From Agathobaculum sp. (lineage in GTDB: Bacteria > Bacillota > Clostridia > Oscillospirales > Butyricicoccaceae), in contig NZ_JALFLA010000076.1 of assembly GCF_022775115.1 (NCBI RefSeq), positions 1 to 32,134 of the forward strand: DNA of 32,134 nucleotides, read 5' to 3'. The position numbers and the translations under genes are program-made. Positions 8,493 through 24,297 of this stretch are shown in pieces. Under the pieces are notes generated by a model, which worked only from the letters and a program-made list of their open reading frames with translations, searched no databases and had not been told where the DNA came from. Positions within the stretch are counted from its first letter, which is position 1, and each line of letters opens with the position of its first letter.

Positions 8493-8528
8493 CAAAAAAG
8501 CGCTTTGGAAGCTCCAAAGCGCTTTTTG
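8493..8528. terminator. Bidirectional terminator between the PRC-barrel gene and tsf
   Basis: A 10-bp perfect stem GCGCTTTGGA (8500-8509) / TCCAAAGCGC (8513-8522) has a 3-base loop, with A6 before and T5 after it. Confidence 0.93.
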
Positions 8529-8543
8529 TTGCGGTATACTGGC

Positions 8544-9476
8544 TTACTTGGCCATCGAGGCGACCTCGGCGGCGAAGTCGTCTACCTTCTTTTCGATGCC
8601 CTCGCCCTTTTCAAAGCGAACGCAGCGGGTCAGCTTGATCTCGCCGCCCAGCTCCTTGGCAACGGCGGCAATATGCTGCTCAACGGAAACCTTGTTCTCC
8701 TTTACGAAGGCCTGCTGCAGCAGGCAGTTCTCCTCGTAGTACTTGCCGACGCGGCCGTCAACCATCTTGTGGATGATCTGCTCCGGCTTGGGCTTGGCGG
8801 CGGTCTTGTTCTCCTCCAGCGCCTGCGCCAGCAGGATCTCGCGCTCCTTGGCAAGCGTGGCCTCATCGACATCGGACTTGTCGAGGAAGGACGGGTTCAT
8901 CGCGGCGGCCTGCATACCGATATCCTTGGCCAGCTCACGCACGGTGTCGTTGCCCTTCAGGTTGTCGGACACGGTCAGGCCGACCAGCACGCCGATCACG
9001 CCGCCCATGTGGTTGTAGGCAACATTGATGGTGCTGTCGTCAAAGCGCTCGAAGCGGCGGATCTGGATGTTCTCGCCGATGGTGAGCACCTTTTCCTGCA
9101 ACGCCTGCTGCACGGTCAGCTCGCCCATCTTGCAGTCCTTGAGACCATCCACATCAGCCGGGGCTTCCTTCATGACAACATCGGCCAGATCGGAGACGAA
9201 CTGCTGGAAATCGGCGTTCTTGGCGACAAAGTCGGTCTCAGAGTTGACCTCGATGATCGCACCCACGCCGCAGTCGGCGCAGACCTTGGCGCAGACAACG
9301 CCCTCGGCGGCGATGCGGTCAGCCTTCTTGGCAGCCTTGGCAAGACCCTTTTCGCGCAGCAACTCGATGGCCTTGTCGAAGTCGCCGTCGGACTCGGTCA
9401 GCGCCTTCTTGCAGTCCATCATGCCCACGTTGGTGATCTCGCGGAGCTTCTTTACGTCAGCAGCGGTAAAAGCCAT
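8544..9476 (-). CDS. tsf: Translation elongation factor Ts
   Basis: Guanine nucleotide exchange factor for EF-Tu. 310 aa. The N-terminal UBA-like domain carries TGVMDCKKAL-type sequence (here VGMMDCKKAL, about 18-27). The core has SETDFVAKNADF, and the coiled-coil and C-terminal parts typical of long EF-Ts are present. The ATG at 9476 is preceded by GGAGGAAT. It lies downstream of rpsB, the conserved bacterial order, separated by a strong hairpin that may reduce readthrough or stabilise transcript ends. Confidence 0.98.
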   Translation of the reverse strand: MAFTAADVKKLREITNVGMMDCKKALTESDGDFDKAIELLREKGLAKAAKKADRIAAEGVVCAKVCADCGVGAIIEVNSETDFVAKNADFQQFVSDLADVVMKEAPADVDGLKDCKMGELTVQQALQEKVLTIGENIQIRRFERFDDSTINVAYNHMGGVIGVLVGLTVSDNLKGNDTVRELAKDIGMQAAAMNPSFLDKSDVDEATLAKEREILLAQALEENKTAAKPKPEQIIHKMVDGRVGKYYEENCLLQQAFVKENKVSVEQHIAAVAKELGGEIKLTRCVRFEKGEGIEKKVDDFAAEVASMAK

Positions 9477-9592: not shown

Positions 9593-10318
9593 TTATTCAG
9601 CCTTAGCGGTCTCCTTGGCCTCGACCTCAAGCTGCTCGCCCTGCTTGCCCTCAAGCACGGCGTTGGCCATGGTCTGGGAGATCAGCTTGATGGCGCGGAT
9701 TGCGTCGTCGTTGCCCGGGATCACATAATCGATCTCATCCGGGTCGCAGTTGGTGTCGACGATCGCCACGATCGGGATACCGAGCTTGCGGGCTTCCGCG
9801 ATGGCGTTCTTCTCCTTGCGGGAGTCGACAACGAACAGCGCGCCCGGCAGCTTCTTCATTTCCTTAACGCCGCCGAGGTACTTCTCGAGCTTGGCGATCT
9901 CCAGCTGGAGCTTGATGACTTCCTTCTTGGGAAGCAGATCGAAGGTGCCGTCCTCCTGCATCTTGGTCAGCTGGTTCAGGCGGGCGATACGGGTGCGCAT
10001 GGTCTTGAAGTTGGTCAGCATACCGCCCAGCCAGCGCGCGTTGACAAAGAACTGGCCGCAGCGCTCGGCTTCTTCCTTGATCGCGTCCTGCGCCTGCTTC
10101 TTGGTGCCGACAAACAGGATGGACTCGCCTGCGGCGGCCATGTCGCGCACGAAGAAGTACGCCTCCTCGAGCTTCTTGACGGTCTTCTGCAGGTCGATGA
10201 TATAGATGCCGTTGCGCTCGGTGAAGATATAGGTCGCCATCTTCGGGTTCCAGCGGCGGGTCTGATGGCCGAAGTGTACGCCGGCCTCCAGAAGCTGCTT
10301 CATAGAGATTACTGCCAT
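9593..10318 (-). CDS. rpsB: 30S ribosomal protein S2
   Basis: Small-subunit ribosomal protein. 241 aa. Clear family marks are [19 protein letters not shown] near the N-terminus, [23 protein letters not shown], and the [15 protein letters not shown] segment. Start chosen at ATG 10318 ([13 protein letters not shown]) because AAGGAGGA (minus, 10333-10326) lies 7 bases upstream; a further in-frame ATG at 10348 precedes the ribosome binding site. The C-terminal tail is acidic and variable, as usual. Transcribed from a near-consensus promoter through a leader of about 110 bases. Confidence 0.98.
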
Positions 10319-10433
10319 TTTTATTTCCTCCTTGGTTGTTGCCTCCATCCCCGATCATTTGACAGCGGCAGCGACCGTTTCCGGCACGCCACCGGCCGCT
10401 TTCATCACGGGATGTGCGAATTTGTGCTCTGAT
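10319..10433 (-). promoter_or_regulatory. Structured rpsB leader, possible autoregulatory element
   Basis: The leader of about 110 bases contains GC-rich inverted repeats, e.g. AGCGGC at about 10364-10369 against GCCGCT near 10395-10400, with CCGG repeats inside. S2 represses its own mRNA through leader structure in some bacteria. No specific known motif was recognised here, so this is a weak inference. Confidence 0.3.
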
Positions 10434-11312: not shown

Positions 11313-11849
11313 ATGGAATTGCATTATGATATCACGAAGCAGGACTACATTGACTTCAATCTGAATTATTATACCAACAACGCGGTCGTGCAGCGCAGCA
11401 TCCTGATGACCCGGATCGCGTCCGCGGCGATTGTCATACTCGGCGGCACGATGCTGATGTATTGGCTGCAAGCGATCTCGCCCGTGTCCATCGCCGTATA
11501 TGTGGCACTGGCGGCGGTGTGCTTTTTCGGTATGCCGTGGTATATGAAGCGCAAGCTGGTCAAGAACACCGAGCGCATTTTGCGCAACGCCAACAACAAG
11601 CAGCTCTGCGGTCCCAAGACGATGATTCTGCGCGAGCAGGAGTTTGAGCTGAAGGGCGAAAACGAGGACACAGTCTACCAATATGCGGCCGTGCAGCGTA
11701 CCGCGTCGGACGAGGGGCATTACTATATCTTTGTCGATGAGTTTTCCGCGCTGATCGTGCCGTTTACTGCCTTTGAGAGCGAGCAGCAGAAGCAGGCGTT
11801 TTACAGCCGCATCACCGCGCATATCACGGACGAAGCGCTCAAGCTGTGA
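11313..11849 (+). CDS. YcxB-like membrane protein
   Basis: 178 aa. The N-terminal part (LHYDITKQDYIDFNLNYY) is typical of YcxB-like proteins. Two membrane segments (about 31-51 and 57-75) are followed by a cytoplasmic C-terminal domain of about 100 residues with alternating beta strands, including IFVDEFSALIVPFTAFES. The function of the family is unknown. The ATG at 11313 has AAAGGAG 10 bases upstream and a good promoter. It appears to be a single-gene transcript; the serpin gene begins 115 bases later with its own possible regulatory site. Confidence 0.78.
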   Translation: MELHYDITKQDYIDFNLNYYTNNAVVQRSILMTRIASAAIVILGGTMLMYWLQAISPVSIAVYVALAAVCFFGMPWYMKRKLVKNTERILRNANNKQLCGPKTMILREQEFELKGENEDTVYQYAAVQRTASDEGHYYIFVDEFSALIVPFTAFESEQQKQAFYSRITAHITDEALKL

Positions 11850-11904
11850 AAGCGGGAGGGAGAGCCATCCGCCCGCAGCCGGAAAAGAGTATTTTGTCCT
11901 TTTG

Positions 11905-11930
11905 GGAACCTTATGCCGCGCCGTCCGTCT
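11905..11930 (+). promoter_or_regulatory. Possible ECF-sigma-type promoter before the serpin gene
   Basis: GGAACC at 11905-11910 is followed 15 bases later by CGTCT (11926-11930). The GGAAC/CGTC pairing and spacing resemble extracytoplasmic-function sigma promoters. No convincing -35/-10 pair of the housekeeping type was seen in this gap. One instance only, so weak. Confidence 0.35.
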
Positions 11931-11964
11931 ATTTTAGCAAATGGAAAAGGCAGGAGGGGTATCC

Positions 11965-13638
11965 ATGAAAAAGAAACTGCTCAGTCTGACGCTTGCGCTG
12001 TGTATGCTGCCGCCGGCCGGCGCGGGCGCGGCCGATGTGCTGCGGCAAAGCGAGGTCACGCGCGGGGAATTCGTCAACATCTTGGCCGAGAGCGCGGGCG
12101 AGGATTTGTCGCAGAGTGCGTATCTCGAGCTGCGCGACTATTTTGACGACGGCACAGGCCAGCCCGACCACGTCAAATGGGCGTTTGACAAGTGGCTCGT
12201 CAACGGGGACGAGACCGGGCGGCTGCGCATGGCCGACCCCATCACCCGGCAGGAGGCCGCGGTCATCCTTGGCCGCTATCTGGACTACCGGTATACCGCG
12301 CTGCCCGCGGGCTGCGGCACCGGTGCACCGTCTATGGCTGATATCGCCGCATGGGCGCAGAGCGGTGTGATGCAATGCTGGATGTATCGCGTGATCGACA
12401 TGGGTGACGCATCCGCTTTTCACCCGGAGGGCGGCGTTTCGCTTGATGAGGCGCGGCAGTGGTGTGCAAACGCGCAAGAGCTGACCATGTGCGCGGTCAG
12501 CCAGCCGGAGGAGCAGGTCTTTGCCGATGCGCTGGTCGGCGCGCTGGACGCGCAGGGCAACTGGGCGCTCTCGCCGTATTCCATCCGCCTGTGCCTTGCC
12601 ATGCTGGCAAACGGCGCAAAGGGGGAGACGCAGCGCGAGCTGCTCGCCGCCCTGCGGGTCGACGACCTTGACGGGTTTAACGTCGAGGTCGAGACGCTGC
12701 TGACGCAGTATGACGGGTACGCGCGCATCCTGTCGCTCGATACGGCAAATTCCATCTGGCTCAACCGCAGCCAATACGGCGGAAAGGGAGCGTTTGAGCC
12801 TGCCTTCCGGCAGACGATGGCGGACGTGTACCGCGCCGAAGCGCGGGAGGTGACGCGCGATAATGCGGTCGAGCAGGTGAATGCGTGGGTCAAGGACAAG
12901 ACGCGCGGCAAGATCGCGTCGATTTTGACCGAGGACGACCGGGATTTCGTTGCGGCGCTCGTGAACGCAGTGTACTTCAAGGCCGCGTGGGAGAATGAAT
13001 TCCCTGCACAGAACACGAAAAAGGGCGACTTTACAAACGCGGACGGCACCAAGGCGCAGGTCGAGTTCATGCGCCAGACCGATTACTTCAGCTATTACGC
13101 TACGCCGGGCATCGAGGCGGTGTCGCTGCCCTTCCGCAAATATGCAGTGGATGATGAGACGGGCGATGGCTGGGAGTATTTCCGCGACGCGGATTTCAGC
13201 ATGTACTTCATCAAGGCGGATAACACGCTCGACGTGCAGCACTTCCTTGATTACGCGGCGTTTGAGGACGCGCAGGTGCGGCTGTCCATTCCCAAGTTCC
13301 GGGTCGAATACGGTACGGGGTTGAACGACGCGCTGCGGGCGCTCGGCGTACAGACGGCGTTTGACCGCGCGCGCGCCGACCTGACCGCCATGGTGCCGGA
13401 TACGCCAAACGGCAGGGTGTATCTGGACAGCGTGCTGCACAAGACCTACCTTTCCATTGACGAAAAGGGCGCGGAAGCTGCGGCAGTCACCGCTGCGATC
13501 GCAGACGCGGGCGCGGCCGCGCCGACACGGCCACCGCTGGTACGTATGTTCACGGCGGATTCACCGTTCTGGTTTGCCATTCGCGATAACACGAGCGGCA
13601 CGCTGCTGTTCGTCGGCCGCTATGAAAAAACTGCGTAA
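11965..13638 (+). CDS. Secreted serpin protease inhibitor fused to SLH-like modules
   Basis: 557 aa. A signal peptide (residues 1-22, ending AGAGA-AD) is followed by about 150 residues with divergent S-layer-homology features: VTRGEFVNIL, the aromatic pair in VKWAFDKWLVNG, ITRQEAAVILGRYL, and a third partial module around SMADIAAWAQSGV to GVSLDEA. A complete serpin follows from about 182 to 557. Serpin marks are NWALSPYSIRLCLAMLANGAKGET-type sequence (about 199-222), LVNAVYFKAAWENEF (332-346), IPKFRVEYG, and the hinge EKGAEAAAVTAA (500-511). FTADSPFWFAIRD lies near the end. The small-residue hinge is that of inhibitory serpins. The scissile bond is uncertain because the loop after the hinge is long and rich in Ala and Pro. 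Start chosen at ATG 11965, with AGGAGG 7 bases upstream. Probably tethered at the surface and aimed at host or competitor serine proteases (inference). Confidence 0.92.
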   Translation: MKKKLLSLTLALCMLPPAGAGAADVLRQSEVTRGEFVNILAESAGEDLSQSAYLELRDYFDDGTGQPDHVKWAFDKWLVNGDETGRLRMADPITRQEAAVILGRYLDYRYTALPAGCGTGAPSMADIAAWAQSGVMQCWMYRVIDMGDASAFHPEGGVSLDEARQWCANAQELTMCAVSQPEEQVFADALVGALDAQGNWALSPYSIRLCLAMLANGAKGETQRELLAALRVDDLDGFNVEVETLLTQYDGYARILSLDTANSIWLNRSQYGGKGAFEPAFRQTMADVYRAEAREVTRDNAVEQVNAWVKDKTRGKIASILTEDDRDFVAALVNAVYFKAAWENEFPAQNTKKGDFTNADGTKAQVEFMRQTDYFSYYATPGIEAVSLPFRKYAVDDETGDGWEYFRDADFSMYFIKADNTLDVQHFLDYAAFEDAQVRLSIPKFRVEYGTGLNDALRALGVQTAFDRARADLTAMVPDTPNGRVYLDSVLHKTYLSIDEKGAEAAAVTAAIADAGAAAPTRPPLVRMFTADSPFWFAIRDNTSGTLLFVGRYEKTA

Positions 13639-13643
13639 AGCGG

Positions 13644-13672
13644 TTGACAAAGCGGGTTTTCGGGTATAGAAT
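13644..13672 (+). promoter_or_regulatory. Promoter for the thrS T-box transcript
   Basis: Perfect -35 TTGACA (13644-13649), 17-bp spacer, -10 TAGAAT (13667-13672), starting 6 bases after the serpin stop codon. Confidence 0.88.
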
Positions 13673-13684
13673 AGGAGCATTAAT

Positions 13685-13726
13685 ATGAAAAAAGCGATGA
13701 CGGAAAGCCTGAAAGTATCCCGGTAA
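13685..13726 (+). other. 13-codon mini-frame inside T-box stem I
   Basis: ATG (13685) to TAA (13724-13726) encodes MKKAMTESLKVSR, with AGGAG at 13673-13677, 7 bases upstream. It lies on the 5' strand of stem I. It has a plausible ribosome binding site but may be chance, because T-box leaders are not normally translated. Confidence 0.25.
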
Positions 13727-13923
13727 GCGTTTGGCAGAGAGCGGACGACGCGGCTGAGAGCGTCCGCAGACGCGGAGAAAACAGTACCGATTCCCGAGCT
13801 GCGCAGAGGAAACCACAGTATGCTGCGCCGTTTCGTCCGCGTTACGGACTTCCGAGCGGCTGCTTGCCCCACCAATGACGGCAGGGCGGGCGGCAAGCAG
13901 GGTGGAACCGTGGGATTTTTATA

Positions 13924-13966
13924 CTCTCACCCCTGACACACCGTTAGGGGTGAGAGTTTTCTTTTG
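13924..13966 (+). terminator. T-box-regulated terminator before thrS
   Basis: An 11-bp perfect stem (13924-13934 with 13946-13956) has an 11-base loop and TTTTCTTTT after it. It is the regulated terminator of the T-box. Confidence 0.93.
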
Positions 13967-13997
13967 CCCCGCGAGCAAATGAAGGAGGAACATCAAG

Positions 13998-15752
13998 ATG
14001 TCTGAGGACAAGAAGTACACATTTGAAAACCCGGAATACCGGGATACCTACCGGCACACGGTATCGCATATTCTGGCGCAGGCGGTCAAGCGCCTGTATC
14101 CCGAGGTCAAGCTGGCCATCGGCCCCGCGATCGAATCAGGCTTTTATTACGATTTTGACGCGCCCTTCTCCTTTACGCAGGAGCATCTGGACGCGCTCGA
14201 AGCCGAGATGAAGAAGATCTGCAAGGAAAAGCTGCCGCTTGAGCGCTTTGAGCTGCCGCGCGAGCAGGCCATTCAGTTCATGCAGGAGCGTGACGAGCCG
14301 TACAAGGTCGAGCTGATACGCGATCTGCCCGCGGATGTGGCCATCTCGTTTTACAAGCAGGGAGACTTTACCGATCTATGCGCAGGCCCGCATCTGGACT
14401 CGACCGGGCGCGTCAAGGCCAACGGCATCAAGCTGATGAACGTCACCGGCGCATATTGGCGCGGCGACAGCAACAATAAGATGCTGCAGCGTGTCTACGG
14501 CACGGCTTTTCCGAAAAAGGACGAGCTGGAGGCCTATCTGAACATGCTGGAGGAGGCCAAGAAGCGCGACCACCGCCGCCTTGGCCGTGAGCTTGGCCTG
14601 TTTATGCTCACCGAGGAAGGGCCGGGCTTCCCGTTCTTCCTGCCAAACGGCATGACGCTTAAAAACACCCTGATCGACTACTGGCGCGCGGTGCACAAGC
14701 GCTACGGCTATGTTGAGGTGCAGACTCCGATGATCCTCAACCGGCAGCTTTGGGAGCGCTCGGGGCACTGGGGGCATTACAAGCAGAATATGTACACCAC
14801 AGTCATCGACGAGGAGGATTATGCGATCAAGCCGATGAACTGCCCGGGCGGTATGCTGGTGTACCAGTCGCAGCCGCACTCCTACCGGGAGCTGCCGCTC
14901 CGCGTGGGCGAGTTGGGGCTTGTCCACCGGCATGAGCTGTCCGGCGCGTTGCACGGCCTGTTCCGCGTGCGCTGCTTTACGCAGGATGACGCACATATCT
15001 TTATGACATGGGAGCAGATGAAGGACGAGATCAAGAGCGTCGTGCGGCTGTTTGACGAGGTGTACTCGACCTTCGGCCTGACCTATGAGATCGAGCTGTC
15101 CACCATGCCGGACGACCACATGGGTGATGAGAAGGACTGGGCGTTCGCGCAGCAGACGCTCAAGGAGGCCATCGCTGAGATGGGCAAGGGCTATGTCGTC
15201 AACGAGGGCGACGGCGCGTTCTACGGCCCGAAGCTGGACTTCCATCTGGCCGATTCGCTCGGCCGCACTTGGCAGTGCGGCACCATCCAGCTCGATATGC
15301 AGCTGCCCGAGCGCTTTGCGCTGGAGTACACCGGCGCGGACGGCGAGAAGCACCGGCCGGTCATGATCCATCGCGTCGTGTTCGGCTCGATCGAGCGTTT
15401 CATCGGCATCTTGACCGAGCACTTCGCGGGCGCATTCCCGACTTGGCTCGCGCCTGAGCAGGTGCGCGTCATGCCGATGACCGACCGCAACATAGCCTGC
15501 TCGCAGGAGGTGGTCGATCAGTTGACCGCGGCTGGCTTCCGCGTGACGATGGACGCACGCAACGAGAAGATCGGTTACAAGATCCGCGAGGCACAGGTGC
15601 ACAAGGTACCGTATATGATCGTCATCGGTGACAAGGACGAGGACAAGGGGGTTATCTCGGTGCGCGAGCGCAAGAGCGGCGAGACCACCCAGATGGAGCT
15701 GGCCGAGTTCATCGAAAAGCTCAGCTACGAGGTAAAGGAAAAGCTGCGCTGA
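13998..15752 (+). CDS. thrS: Threonyl-tRNA synthetase lacking the TGS domain
   Basis: Charges tRNA-Thr. 584 aa, about 50-60 residues shorter than the usual 635-645. The N-terminal TGS domain is absent and the protein opens directly with the editing domain. That domain is complete: HTVSH (H20, H24) and DLCAGPH (C128, H132), the zinc/editing residues. The class II catalytic core contains MNCPGG, RHELSGALHGLFRVRCFTQDDAH-type motif 2, YGPKLDF and the anticodon-binding domain from about 480. ATG at 13998 with AGGAGG 9 bases upstream; no in-frame extension is possible through the T-box terminator. The SLH gene begins 24 bases after its stop with no terminator between. Confidence 0.97.
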   Translation: MSEDKKYTFENPEYRDTYRHTVSHILAQAVKRLYPEVKLAIGPAIESGFYYDFDAPFSFTQEHLDALEAEMKKICKEKLPLERFELPREQAIQFMQERDEPYKVELIRDLPADVAISFYKQGDFTDLCAGPHLDSTGRVKANGIKLMNVTGAYWRGDSNNKMLQRVYGTAFPKKDELEAYLNMLEEAKKRDHRRLGRELGLFMLTEEGPGFPFFLPNGMTLKNTLIDYWRAVHKRYGYVEVQTPMILNRQLWERSGHWGHYKQNMYTTVIDEEDYAIKPMNCPGGMLVYQSQPHSYRELPLRVGELGLVHRHELSGALHGLFRVRCFTQDDAHIFMTWEQMKDEIKSVVRLFDEVYSTFGLTYEIELSTMPDDHMGDEKDWAFAQQTLKEAIAEMGKGYVVNEGDGAFYGPKLDFHLADSLGRTWQCGTIQLDMQLPERFALEYTGADGEKHRPVMIHRVVFGSIERFIGILTEHFAGAFPTWLAPEQVRVMPMTDRNIACSQEVVDQLTAAGFRVTMDARNEKIGYKIREAQVHKVPYMIVIGDKDEDKGVISVRERKSGETTQMELAEFIEKLSYEVKEKLR

Positions 15753-15776: not shown

Positions 15777-17558
15777 ATGAAAAAGCTGTTCACCGCCCTG
15801 TGCATCACGGGCGCGCTGACCCTTGCCGCCGGCGCGGCGGATGTTGGCACGATAGGCAACAGCTTTCCGGGCGACACCGAAGCGCAGGCGCAGATGCTGT
15901 ACGATTTGGGACTGTTTCGCGGCACTGAGCAGGGCTTCGCGCTGGAAAAGCCGATGACCCGTGCCGAAGCGGCTGTCATGCTCACGCGCCTGCTCGGCGC
16001 GGAGCAGGCCGCGCTGGTCGAAAACCGACAGCATCCGTTTGGCGATGTGCCGCAGTGGGCCGCGCCATACGTCGGCTGGCTGTATCAGAACGGCCTGACC
16101 CGGGGCGTGTCCGACGCCGCTTACGGGGCGGATGAAAATGTGACCTGCGTGCAATACTGCACGTTTCTGGCGCGCGCGGCAGCAGATGGGGACGATTACC
16201 GGCCTGTGCTCAGCTTGGGCGAGACTGAGGTGACCGCGTGCGATAGGGCGGGCTTTGTTCGGGGGGACGCGGTCTCGCTGTCCGCGCGCCTGCTGGGCGC
16301 GTATTACACCAAAGGAGAGGATGCGAGCGGCGTTACCGTTGCGCAGAAGCTGATCGACAAGGGCGTGTTCACAAAGGAGCAGCTCAAAGCCGCCGCATGG
16401 GATGTGCTGCCGCGCAGCTACGCGCGGCAAAGCCTGCATGGTGCGGACGACAACGATTACCGGCTGTCCTGCGTGATCGCGGGCGTGCCGGTGGTGCGCG
16501 GTGAGCAAAGTGAAGCAGTCGTGCTCTATACCGACAAGGCGCTGAATGGACTATACGGCGAGAGCCAGCAGGACGGACAATATGTACTCTATCAGATCGA
16601 CCCCGAAACCGTGCGGCTGACCGCGCTCGGCGCGTATGCCGAGGGGAGCGCGGCCGGTTTGGTCGGCCGTGCCGGGCAGACTGATTACCTGTGGCTGCAC
16701 GACAGCGCGGATGGCCGGACAACGCTGTACGCGGTGCGCGGAAGCGCCATGCAGGCCAAGCTGGAGCTGCCCGCCGACGCATCGGTCGGCAGCTGGCAGG
16801 GGAAAAACGGCTGCGTGCTGCAAAGCGGCGGCGCGTTTTATCGCTTGGGCGAGGACGAGGTGCTGCCGCTTGCGATCGCCGCGGGCGAAGAGCTGTTTGC
16901 CGTGACCGAAGGCGGCCTGCTGGTCACGCAGAACGTAGGCCGGGAGCAAACGACGGTATCCGCATGGCGCTGGGATGGCGAGGCTGCGGGCAGCTATACC
17001 GTGTATAATGATTATATCGTCCCGGCGGAACAGCAGGCATATGGGGAACAGCTTCTTCTGCATTACGCGCCCCGGCTGACAGGCAGCGACCAAGCCTATC
17101 TGTACGGCGGCGCGGGACTGTACCGTGAGCAGGACGGCCTTCTGGTGCAGGTGTCGGCGCAGCCGGCCTATGCTTATGCGGCGGACGAGACGGACGGCAG
17201 CATCGTTATCATCACGCACGACGCGGGCAGGCGGGTGGAATACACGGAGAGCGCGGTATCGTTTTTGACCGGCGACACGCTCGCCCGCGTGTCGGCGGAC
17301 GGCACGGTGACGCGCCTGCTGCCCACGCTGTCCGCGGGCAGTCTGCTGCTGGGGCAGATCGAGGACGCGCGGGACGGCGCGGTGCGCTTTACGCTGCTCA
17401 AGGCAACCGAGCCGCGCATGATGGGACGGTTCCGCTGTACGCTGCGGGACGGCAGGGTGACGGTCGACAGCGCCTCGGACGATATCTTGTATATATGGGG
17501 CGAGAACGCCGTATACAAGGAGCAGGAGCGCCTGGGCGGTCTTGGCCTCGGCGCTTAG
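15777..17558 (+). CDS. SLH-domain secreted protein with propeller-like C-terminal repeats
   Basis: 593 aa. The signal peptide ends near residue 20 (TLAAGAAD). SLH modules include MTRAEAAVMLTRLLGAE (about 60-76) and FGDVPQWAAPYVGWLYQNGL (about 90-109), then a weaker third segment to about 200. The rest (about 230-590) is beta-rich with irregular repeats pairing a small motif with Y/L-W and G-x-D turns, such as QYVLYQIDPETVRLTALG and DYLWLHDSADGRTTLYAV. This looks like the blades of a beta-propeller, but no named family was recognised. It follows thrS by 24 bases with GGAGG 11 bases before the ATG, so its expression probably depends on the threonine T-box. It converges on the carboxypeptidase-regulatory-like gene, with stop codons overlapping in TTAG. 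Probably a wall-bound surface protein. Confidence 0.85.
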   Translation: MKKLFTALCITGALTLAAGAADVGTIGNSFPGDTEAQAQMLYDLGLFRGTEQGFALEKPMTRAEAAVMLTRLLGAEQAALVENRQHPFGDVPQWAAPYVGWLYQNGLTRGVSDAAYGADENVTCVQYCTFLARAAADGDDYRPVLSLGETEVTACDRAGFVRGDAVSLSARLLGAYYTKGEDASGVTVAQKLIDKGVFTKEQLKAAAWDVLPRSYARQSLHGADDNDYRLSCVIAGVPVVRGEQSEAVVLYTDKALNGLYGESQQDGQYVLYQIDPETVRLTALGAYAEGSAAGLVGRAGQTDYLWLHDSADGRTTLYAVRGSAMQAKLELPADASVGSWQGKNGCVLQSGGAFYRLGEDEVLPLAIAAGEELFAVTEGGLLVTQNVGREQTTVSAWRWDGEAAGSYTVYNDYIVPAEQQAYGEQLLLHYAPRLTGSDQAYLYGGAGLYREQDGLLVQVSAQPAYAYAADETDGSIVIITHDAGRRVEYTESAVSFLTGDTLARVSADGTVTRLLPTLSAGSLLLGQIEDARDGAVRFTLLKATEPRMMGRFRCTLRDGRVTVDSASDDILYIWGENAVYKEQERLGGLGLGA

Positions 17559-23031: not shown

Positions 23032-24297
23032 ATGAACAAGTTGCTTCGAACGGTCTGCGCGGGCGTGCTGCTCGCCGGCGCGTTGACGGTTTCGGTGTTT
23101 GCTGCTGATTTTACGGAATGCGCTGACCATCTGAAAGCGCTCGGCCTGTTCCAAGGCACGGCGCAGGGCTATGAGCTCGACCGCGCGCCCACGCGCGCCG
23201 AGGCGGCAGCCATGCTGGTGCGCCTGCTCGGTAAGGAGGACGAGGCGCGCGCGCTGCCGTATGACGCACCGTTTACCGATTTGGATGACTGGCAGAAGCC
23301 CTATGTGCAGTATCTCTATCAAAATGGGCTGACCACCGGCGTGACTGAGAGCACATTCGACCCGCAGAGCATGTGCACCGCGCGGATGTACGCGGCGTTT
23401 CTCCTGCGCGCACTCGGCTATACCGAGCGTGCGGGCGATTTTACTTACCGCGAGGCTGCGGATTTTGCGCTGTCGATCGGCCTGTACGACCCGGCGACCG
23501 TGGACGAGGCACGTTTTCTGCGCGACCATGTGGCCGCGGCCAGCTATACCGCGTTGTCCATTGCGCCCAAGGATGAGCAGCAGACGCTGCTTGACCAGCT
23601 GACCGGACAGGGCGCGGTCGATGCTGCGGCGGCAGAGCCGTACCGTGCGTTGTTTGCGGATTATGCGGCTTACCGCCGCGCGACGGATAAGATGGACGGT
23701 GTGACCGCGCTCTCCCTCACCCATGCACTGACCCTGGATGCGGGCAGCTTTGCCATGCAAAGCGATGAGAGCATTGCGCTCGATCTGGCGGCTCGCACCT
23801 CGCTGAGCCAGCGCACGGTGACGCTGACGGCTCCGGGCGGGCTGGAAAAGACCTTCACGGCGGAGAGCTACACTGCCGGCGGCTACCGCTATCTGCGGCA
23901 GGACGGTGTGCGCTCGCGCCGCGCGCTCAGCGAGGCGCAGATGAGCGCGGCCTTCACGGGATATGCGCGTGTGCCGGTCGCGCTGATCGAAAGCGTCACG
24001 GCCATACCCGCAGGCAGCTATACCATCGCGTACAGCAAGGCGGGCATGGCGCGGCTGGATGCCGTGCTCGAAGCTGCGAAGGCCGCAGTCGGTGAAGTGG
24101 AGGCGCTTAGGATCGAGGATTTGTCGGTCACGCAGACCACGGCGGATGGCTATGTCAGCGCACAGCAGGTGCAGCTGGTATTTTCCGGTGAGGAGGTCAG
24201 CGGCACGGTGAAAAGCGTCATGCAGCTGGTGGAGCAGGGTGGGCAGGTGACGGTCGCCGTGCCGAACGACCTTGACCAGTATCCGCTGGTCGGGTGA
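23032..24297 (+). CDS. SLH-domain surface protein, paralogue of the 20454 gene
   Basis: 421 aa. A signal peptide (about 1-24, ending SVFAAD) is followed by SLH modules: YELDRAPTRAEAAAMLVRLL, FTDLDDWQKPYVQYLYQNGL and a third to about 195. These are nearly the same as in the protein starting at 20454. The C-terminal part (about 215-421) is a beta-rich domain of the same general layout, ending in TVAVPNDLDQYPLVG where the paralogue has ITLPTDLDTYTDMG. It lacks the methionine enrichment and is shorter. The ATG at 23032 is preceded by AAAGGAG, and the gene has its own promoter. SLH modules bind pyruvylated secondary wall polymers in Gram-positive envelopes, so wall attachment is expected. The function of the C-terminal domain is unknown. 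Confidence 0.87.
   Translation: MNKLLRTVCAGVLLAGALTVSVFAADFTECADHLKALGLFQGTAQGYELDRAPTRAEAAAMLVRLLGKEDEARALPYDAPFTDLDDWQKPYVQYLYQNGLTTGVTESTFDPQSMCTARMYAAFLLRALGYTERAGDFTYREAADFALSIGLYDPATVDEARFLRDHVAAASYTALSIAPKDEQQTLLDQLTGQGAVDAAAAEPYRALFADYAAYRRATDKMDGVTALSLTHALTLDAGSFAMQSDESIALDLAARTSLSQRTVTLTAPGGLEKTFTAESYTAGGYRYLRQDGVRSRRALSEAQMSAAFTGYARVPVALIESVTAIPAGSYTIAYSKAGMARLDAVLEAAKAAVGEVEALRIEDLSVTQTTADGYVSAQQVQLVFSGEEVSGTVKSVMQLVEQGGQVTVAVPNDLDQYPLVG

Follow-up and report, generated by a model that had tools for sequence, protein, structure and literature searches.

A 32,134-nucleotide stretch of Agathobaculum sp. DNA (contig NZ_JALFLA010000076.1, hereafter the window) carries a gene whose product joins a predicted signal peptide, an N-terminal part related to S-layer homology (SLH) modules and a full serpin domain with an inhibitory-type hinge. 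This protein, here termed SLH-serpin, is probably secreted and held on the wall of the producing cell by its SLH part, trapping proteases there. In the proposed mechanism, the signal peptide would export the protein, the 2.5-module SLH part would bind non-covalently to a pyruvylated polysaccharide of the wall, made with the help of CsaB, and the protein's serpin domain would point outward. A serine protease arriving at the wall would cut the exposed loop at or beside Gly516, upon which the cut loop would insert into beta-sheet A and the protease would be trapped as a covalent, inactive complex. The likely job of such a protein would be to protect the cell's SLH surface proteome against gut proteases, whether elastase-like enzymes of the host or subtilases from other microbes. 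A more specific proposal, possible and held tentatively, is that the genus maintains a wall-anchored serpin lineage at one chromosomal place, with a genus-specific 36-residue loop containing a conserved P-x-R-P-x-L-x-R motif and tuned to one small-residue-preferring class of gut protease. Such a protein would act as a surface flypaper, since the anchor and the serpin-protease bond would lie on one molecule and the trapped, dead protease would stay on the cell's wall.

Domain organization and proposed wall anchoring

The serpin domain aligns with positions 18-367 of the 370 in PF00079 (serpin superfamily, MEROPS I4), scoring 261.9 bits against a cut-off of 27. With an AlphaFold2 (AF2) model of the protein (predicted local distance difference test 76.0, predicted template-modelling score 0.68), Foldseek returned 415 matches in the PDB at E <= 0.001; the best 50 of these 415 are all serpins by title, headed by antithrombin (6.9e-30) and tengpin (9.0e-30). 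It is the only serpin match in the genome (2.19 Mb, 88 contigs searched), and an NCBIfam scan of the protein gave no family at E <= 0.1. The predicted signal peptide has a basic start, a hydrophobic core and an AxA-type end, at which cleavage would occur. The initial annotation had described a full serpin fused to an SLH-type N-terminal part, an architecture borne out by profile, orthologues and predicted structure, and the motifs it named there (TRGEF, W-A-x-D-K-W and TRQEAAVILGR) are all present.

The N-terminal part corresponds to about 2.5 SLH modules, module 1 being without its first helix. Profile-profile comparison (hhalign) with SLH regions of the same genome gave a probability of 98.4 and E 5e-15, while the control, one unrelated alignment of very low diversity, gave E 0.44. 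Structure comparison of the predicted model recovered an SLH trimer fold, in support of the fold expected from the initial annotation. Among the genus members, 11 of 15 (window included) have an SLH match at E <= 1, the best at 5.3e-8, and all six SLH-serpins scanned from outside the genus exceed the PF00395 cut-off. TRxE is the ligand motif of SLH modules, and the arginines at the TRxE-type motifs of module 1 (Arg33) and module 2 (Arg95) are invariant in 15/15 genus members. Equally invariant across these 15 are Cys117, just before module 3, and Cys138 within it, columns that hold no cysteine in the six SLH-serpins from outside the genus; from the sequence, a Cys117-Cys138 disulphide is possible in this surface protein of an anaerobe.

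SLH modules bind pyruvylated wall polysaccharide, a ligand named in the titles of several SpaA and Sap entries. The genome contains 90 SLH-module matches, and TIGR03609 identifies a CsaB pyruvyl transferase in it (213.2 bits against a cut-off of 213.1). The surface tether proposed in the initial annotation stands as the probable reading: profile and structure comparison both back the SLH fold, and genes for SLH anchoring are present. CsaB itself lies in a 779-aa fusion protein (L079:226-2562, +), where it follows a GT4-type glycosyltransferase, and the next gene has a TuaH match below cut-off.

Hinge and reactive centre loop

The inhibitory-type hinge reported earlier was found at residues 500-511 (EKGAEAAAVTAA). 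Its P17-P9 segment, EKGAEAAAV, follows the consensus ExGTEAAAA, departing from it by Ala for Thr at P14 and by Val at P9. Positions P12-P8 (A-A-A-V-T) are fixed in 14/14 full-length genus proteins, and E-x-G-T-E-A-A-A is kept in 6/6 SLH-serpins outside the genus.

The reactive centre loop region spans 36 residues in all 14 full-length genus members, compared with 33-34 in five further SLH-serpins and 31-35 in those non-genus open reading frames (ORFs), 16 of 21, in which the pattern was found. The excess of the window protein over the 21 other prokaryotic serpins measured is 1-5 residues, and when it is aligned with other SLH-serpins its 3 extra residues fall on the P' side. The loop had been described as about six residues longer than that of alpha-1-antitrypsin; it is indeed longer, but the count is seven (36 versus 29).

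Standard counting from the hinge (P15 Gly502) puts the expected scissile bond at Gly516-Ala517. The P1 Gly is invariant in 14/14 full-length orthologues. P1' is Ala or Ser, and P2' is Ala with a single Gly; P3' varies, and the positions after it are Pro, any residue, Arg and Pro. Because small residues flank the expected cut, the sequence suggests an elastase- or subtilisin-like target enzyme, and less so a trypsin-like one. Siropins, however, show that cleavage may occur several residues off the predicted P1 (PMC5127057). The most variable loop columns (P5-P2, P3', P5' and P8') lie around the expected cut and outside the hinge. The 13-column stretch has 1.12 bits against 0.62 for the serpin domain, with 18 of 326 other windows of columns equally variable.

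Points against the proposed wall-anchored inhibitor and alternative explanations

Several observations weigh against a wall-anchored inhibitor. For the anchor, the window protein scores 17.2 bits against PF00395, below the cut-off of 20.8 (E 0.0051), and in one module only, at residues 68-99. The best SLH match in Foldseek has E 1.2e-3, with none at 0.001 or below, and a PDB sequence search with the SLH part gave two SLH chains at non-significant E values of 0.11 and 0.18. In module 3 the Arg of the TRxE-type motif is absent in 15/15 members; this, together with the sub-cut-off SLH score, means that the protein may bind the wall weakly. The CsaB score is just 0.1 bit above its cut-off. For the inhibitor, P14 is Ala in the window protein and Thr in the 13 other full orthologues (EKGTEAAAV), Gly is an unusual residue at P1, and the longer loop might shift the cut. 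Variability in the loop is modest, without clear hypervariability. Finally, 10 of 25 genus genomes, several of them incomplete, have no serpin match, so the serpin is not essential to the genus. The claim of about 150 residues of divergent SLH sequence holds for the relationship to SLH, by profile and fold, with about 2.5 modules and a single sub-threshold Pfam match.

If the SLH part were a decayed remnant that no longer anchors, the serpin would be secreted and diffuse away. The sub-cut-off score, the degenerate motif of module 3 and the missing half of module 1 would all fit such decay. However, Arg33 and Arg95 have stayed invariant, other SLH arrays in the same genome (C9, C19 and C21) likewise have a first match starting at profile position 20-24, and the SLH part is retained in SLH-serpins of several families, making this scenario unlikely.

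Other tethers were also considered. The lipoprotein reading was rejected, as a loose lipobox-like pattern is present in none of the 15 genus members. Among 34 distinct serpin ORFs from elsewhere, most but not all of the same order, 15 have the same pattern; so do two of the six SLH-serpins outside the genus, at sites unsuited to a lipobox (residue 10 in L073 and residue 163 in L109). Since the motif occurs in 15/34 of the other ORFs and in 0/15 genus members, some related bacteria probably tether their serpins by lipid and the SLH-serpin clade by SLH modules. A dockerin tether was rejected because Serpin and SLH are the sole families in a whole-protein Pfam scan taken to E 10.

Alternatively, the serpin domain could be non-inhibitory and serve as a structural, binding or folding-related surface module. 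One clade of Streptomyces serpins may be non-inhibitory (PMC8233489), and the unusual P1 Gly would be compatible with such a role. This is very unlikely, however, given that the P12-P8 hinge is unchanged throughout the full orthologues, that its consensus persists outside the genus, and that variation is concentrated around the expected cut while sparing the hinge. The modest degree of this variation led to the rejection of a strong arms-race signal in the loop.

The target might also be the cell's own. An S8 (subtilisin-like) protease is an attractive partner because the genome's only S8 match (L080, G000 C31) sits in a 1191-aa open frame with SLH matches of its own, and a subtilase would go well with the small residues at and near P1. 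In Clostridium thermocellum, serpin 1 is an inhibitor of subtilisin, and a role in restraining that organism's own subtilisin-like protease has been proposed for it (PMC6718151); by analogy, SLH-serpin could restrain a wall-borne S8 enzyme. However, S8 matches occur in only 4 of 25 genus genomes, two among the 15 with the serpin (one, in G019, a 23.5-bit partial) and two among the 10 without, and the serpin is kept without S8 in 13 of the 15 (Fisher p 1.0, or 0.54 without the G019 partial). An own subtilase was accordingly rejected as the common target, and restraint of such an enzyme appears improbable. An outside protease is favoured as the target of the wall-anchored inhibitor because S8 does not track the serpin in the genus, that is, by elimination of this one candidate of the cell's own.

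Distribution and phylogeny

The window protein has 14 orthologues at 56-63% identity, of which one (L070) is a fragment. An SLH-bearing protein with 56-62% identity over the best segment was found in 11 named records, nine from Agathobaculum, including Agathobaculum desmolans ATCC 43058 (L072), and two from Eubacteriales bacterium. Within the genus, the serpin is present in 15 of 25 genomes and in 9 of the 15 better ones, as one protein each (split over two contig ends in G010).

The genus model has a match at E <= 1e-20 in 99 of 295 genomes of the order, and all the places listed fall in the serpin part; the initial statement that bacterial serpins are uncommon did not hold here, and it is the SLH fusion, not the serpin itself, that looks uncommon in the order. 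The match begins before model position 100 in nine genomes (four of the own genus, G094, G270, G123, G126 and G038), and in G172 it starts at 193, with SLH detected by Pfam. The search for SLH-serpin fusions suggested by the initial annotation yielded at least 10 genomes in the order, own genus included, a figure to be read as a minimum because N-termini were read for only a minority of the lower-ranked serpins, plus a further SLH-serpin in Monoglobus (L073). Of 398 genomes sampled from the phylum, 68 gave a match to a wider model at E <= 1e-40 (up to three candidates scored per genome), and the window's own match is the only one beginning before model position 160.

In a 48-row serpin-domain tree, the 14 SLH-serpins group together, with the long-branched L055 intruding among them and so giving two changes; none of 500 shuffles was as low, and 41% of bootstrap trees give one change. 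In a 45-row tree that leaves out three long-branched rows (L122, L077 and L055), the SLH-serpins form one clade (100/99).

Gene and genomic setting

The features of the gene and its surroundings are collected in Table 1. An alternative in-frame ATG at 11941 was judged a less likely start than that at 11965. Scanning 11800-14050 for sigma-70 sites gave no promoter ahead of the serpin gene, and the window had no Rfam match at gathering scores.

Table 1. Coordinates of the SLH-serpin gene, its parts and its neighbours within the window
Feature	Position	Strand	Basis
SLH-serpin coding sequence, 557 aa + stop	11965..13638	+	Open frame
Shine-Dalgarno-like AGGAGGGG	11952..11959	+	Read directly; five bases upstream of ATG 11965
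Predicted signal peptide, residues 1-22 (MKKKLLSLTLALCMLPPAGAGA)	11965..12030	+	By eye and hydropathy
SLH module 1, second half only (TRGEF helix, residues 27-44)	12043..12096	+	hhalign to own-genome SLH regions; model helix 11-22
SLH module 2 (residues 57-106)	12133..12282	+	PF00395 sub-cut-off at 68-99; fold match
SLH module 3, degenerate (residues 121-172)	12325..12480	+	hhalign, AF2 model, fold match, alignment columns
Cys117 and Cys138 codons	12313-12315, 12376-12378	+	Alignment columns
Serpin domain, residues 195-553	12547..13623	+	PF00079, 261.9 bits, E 1.4e-77
Reactive centre loop region, Glu500 (P17) to conserved Pro-Phe (534-535), 36 residues	13462..13569	+	Alignment and counts
Expected scissile bond Gly516-Ala517 (P1-P1')	13510..13515	+	Predicted by standard count from hinge (P15 Gly502)
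YcxB-like protein, upstream neighbour	11313..11849	+	PF14317, 31.4 bits; upstream of serpin in 9/11 genus loci
Threonyl-tRNA synthetase (thrS), downstream neighbour	13998..15752	+	By sequence and T-box leader
Another SLH protein beyond thrS, 593 aa	15777..17558	+	PF00395, 37.4 bits; in 6/11 genus loci

In 10 of 11 genus loci the serpin gene has thrS as its downstream neighbour, the eleventh contig ending inside the serpin; with the gene at this same place, recent mobile acquisition was rejected. Five of the 10 serpin-lacking genomes were inspected: in two (G011 and G024), YcxB and thrS are adjacent without a serpin, in G008 there is no YcxB upstream of thrS, and the other two contigs ended too soon.

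Before thrS lies a T-box leader at 13688-13937 (+; 70.4 bits, E 2.3e-15, under the Rfam gathering score of 93), near which a promoter-like site (13644-13672) and a terminator-like hairpin (13923-13957) were seen. The SLH protein beyond thrS has a long C-terminal part without a Pfam match at E <= 0.001, and another SLH protein of 421 aa at 23032-24297 (+) has an N-terminus that by eye resembles the N-terminus of the protein at 15777. Further upstream, 8544-9476 (-) and 9593-10348 (-) are likely tsf and rpsB, judged by eye from matching frames in L146 and L147; the plus-strand ORFs at 8505 and 9569 overlap them and look like their shadows.

Implications and comparison with known systems

A serpin that stays tethered to its producer would point to protection of the cell's own wall and not to a released signal, a question that is testable in a cultured species with an orthologue, namely A. 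desmolans ATCC 43058. The protein also offers a natural design for suicide-inhibitor display by commensals of the gut. Inflammatory bowel disease has been linked with increased activity of serine proteases (PMC8201313, PMC5127057).

Among solved serpins, tengpin (2pef, 2vh4) is the closest by sequence (E 1.6e-41) in addition to its match in fold, but its solved chains have no SLH part and its loop has 32 residues versus 36 in SLH-serpin. Serpins without SLH from the same order are mostly 27-36% identical in the serpin domain over near-full-length matches and occupy separate tree branches; many are likely lipoproteins, whose anchor, where present, would be a lipid in the membrane, in contrast to an SLH part on the wall. 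Group T serpins (the siropins of Eubacterium siraeum and the serpin of Bifidobacterium longum) and miropin share with SLH-serpin the serpin domain of gut or oral bacteria (PMC8233489). The siropins are cut after Val by human neutrophil elastase (HNE) and proteinase 3 (PR3); their loop differs from that of the Agathobaculum protein, and the word SLH is absent from the text of the siropin paper (PMC5127057).

Searching open-licence PMC full texts, with subscription journals and domain-architecture databases outside this scope, we found no SLH-serpin in the literature. The nearest parallels in design are the cellulosomal dockerin-serpins (C. thermocellum serpin 1/PinA and Ruminococcus flavefaciens Doc-Serpin), which are likewise held at the surface through an added binding module and are also proposed to guard a surface protein assembly from proteases (PMC6718151, PMC5301203). 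Their tether, however, is a dockerin to the cellulosome scaffold, whereas that of the Agathobaculum protein would be an SLH part on wall polysaccharide. Conversely, the SLH-IPI (BsuPI) protein Chte0880 of C. thermocellum combines a wall-binding SLH part with a putative protease inhibitor (PMC3901451), but this inhibitor has an Ig-like IPI fold and is not a serpin. Surface-held serpins, and SLH modules joined to another inhibitor fold, were thus already known, and SLH-serpin is a serpin with an SLH-type anchor part.
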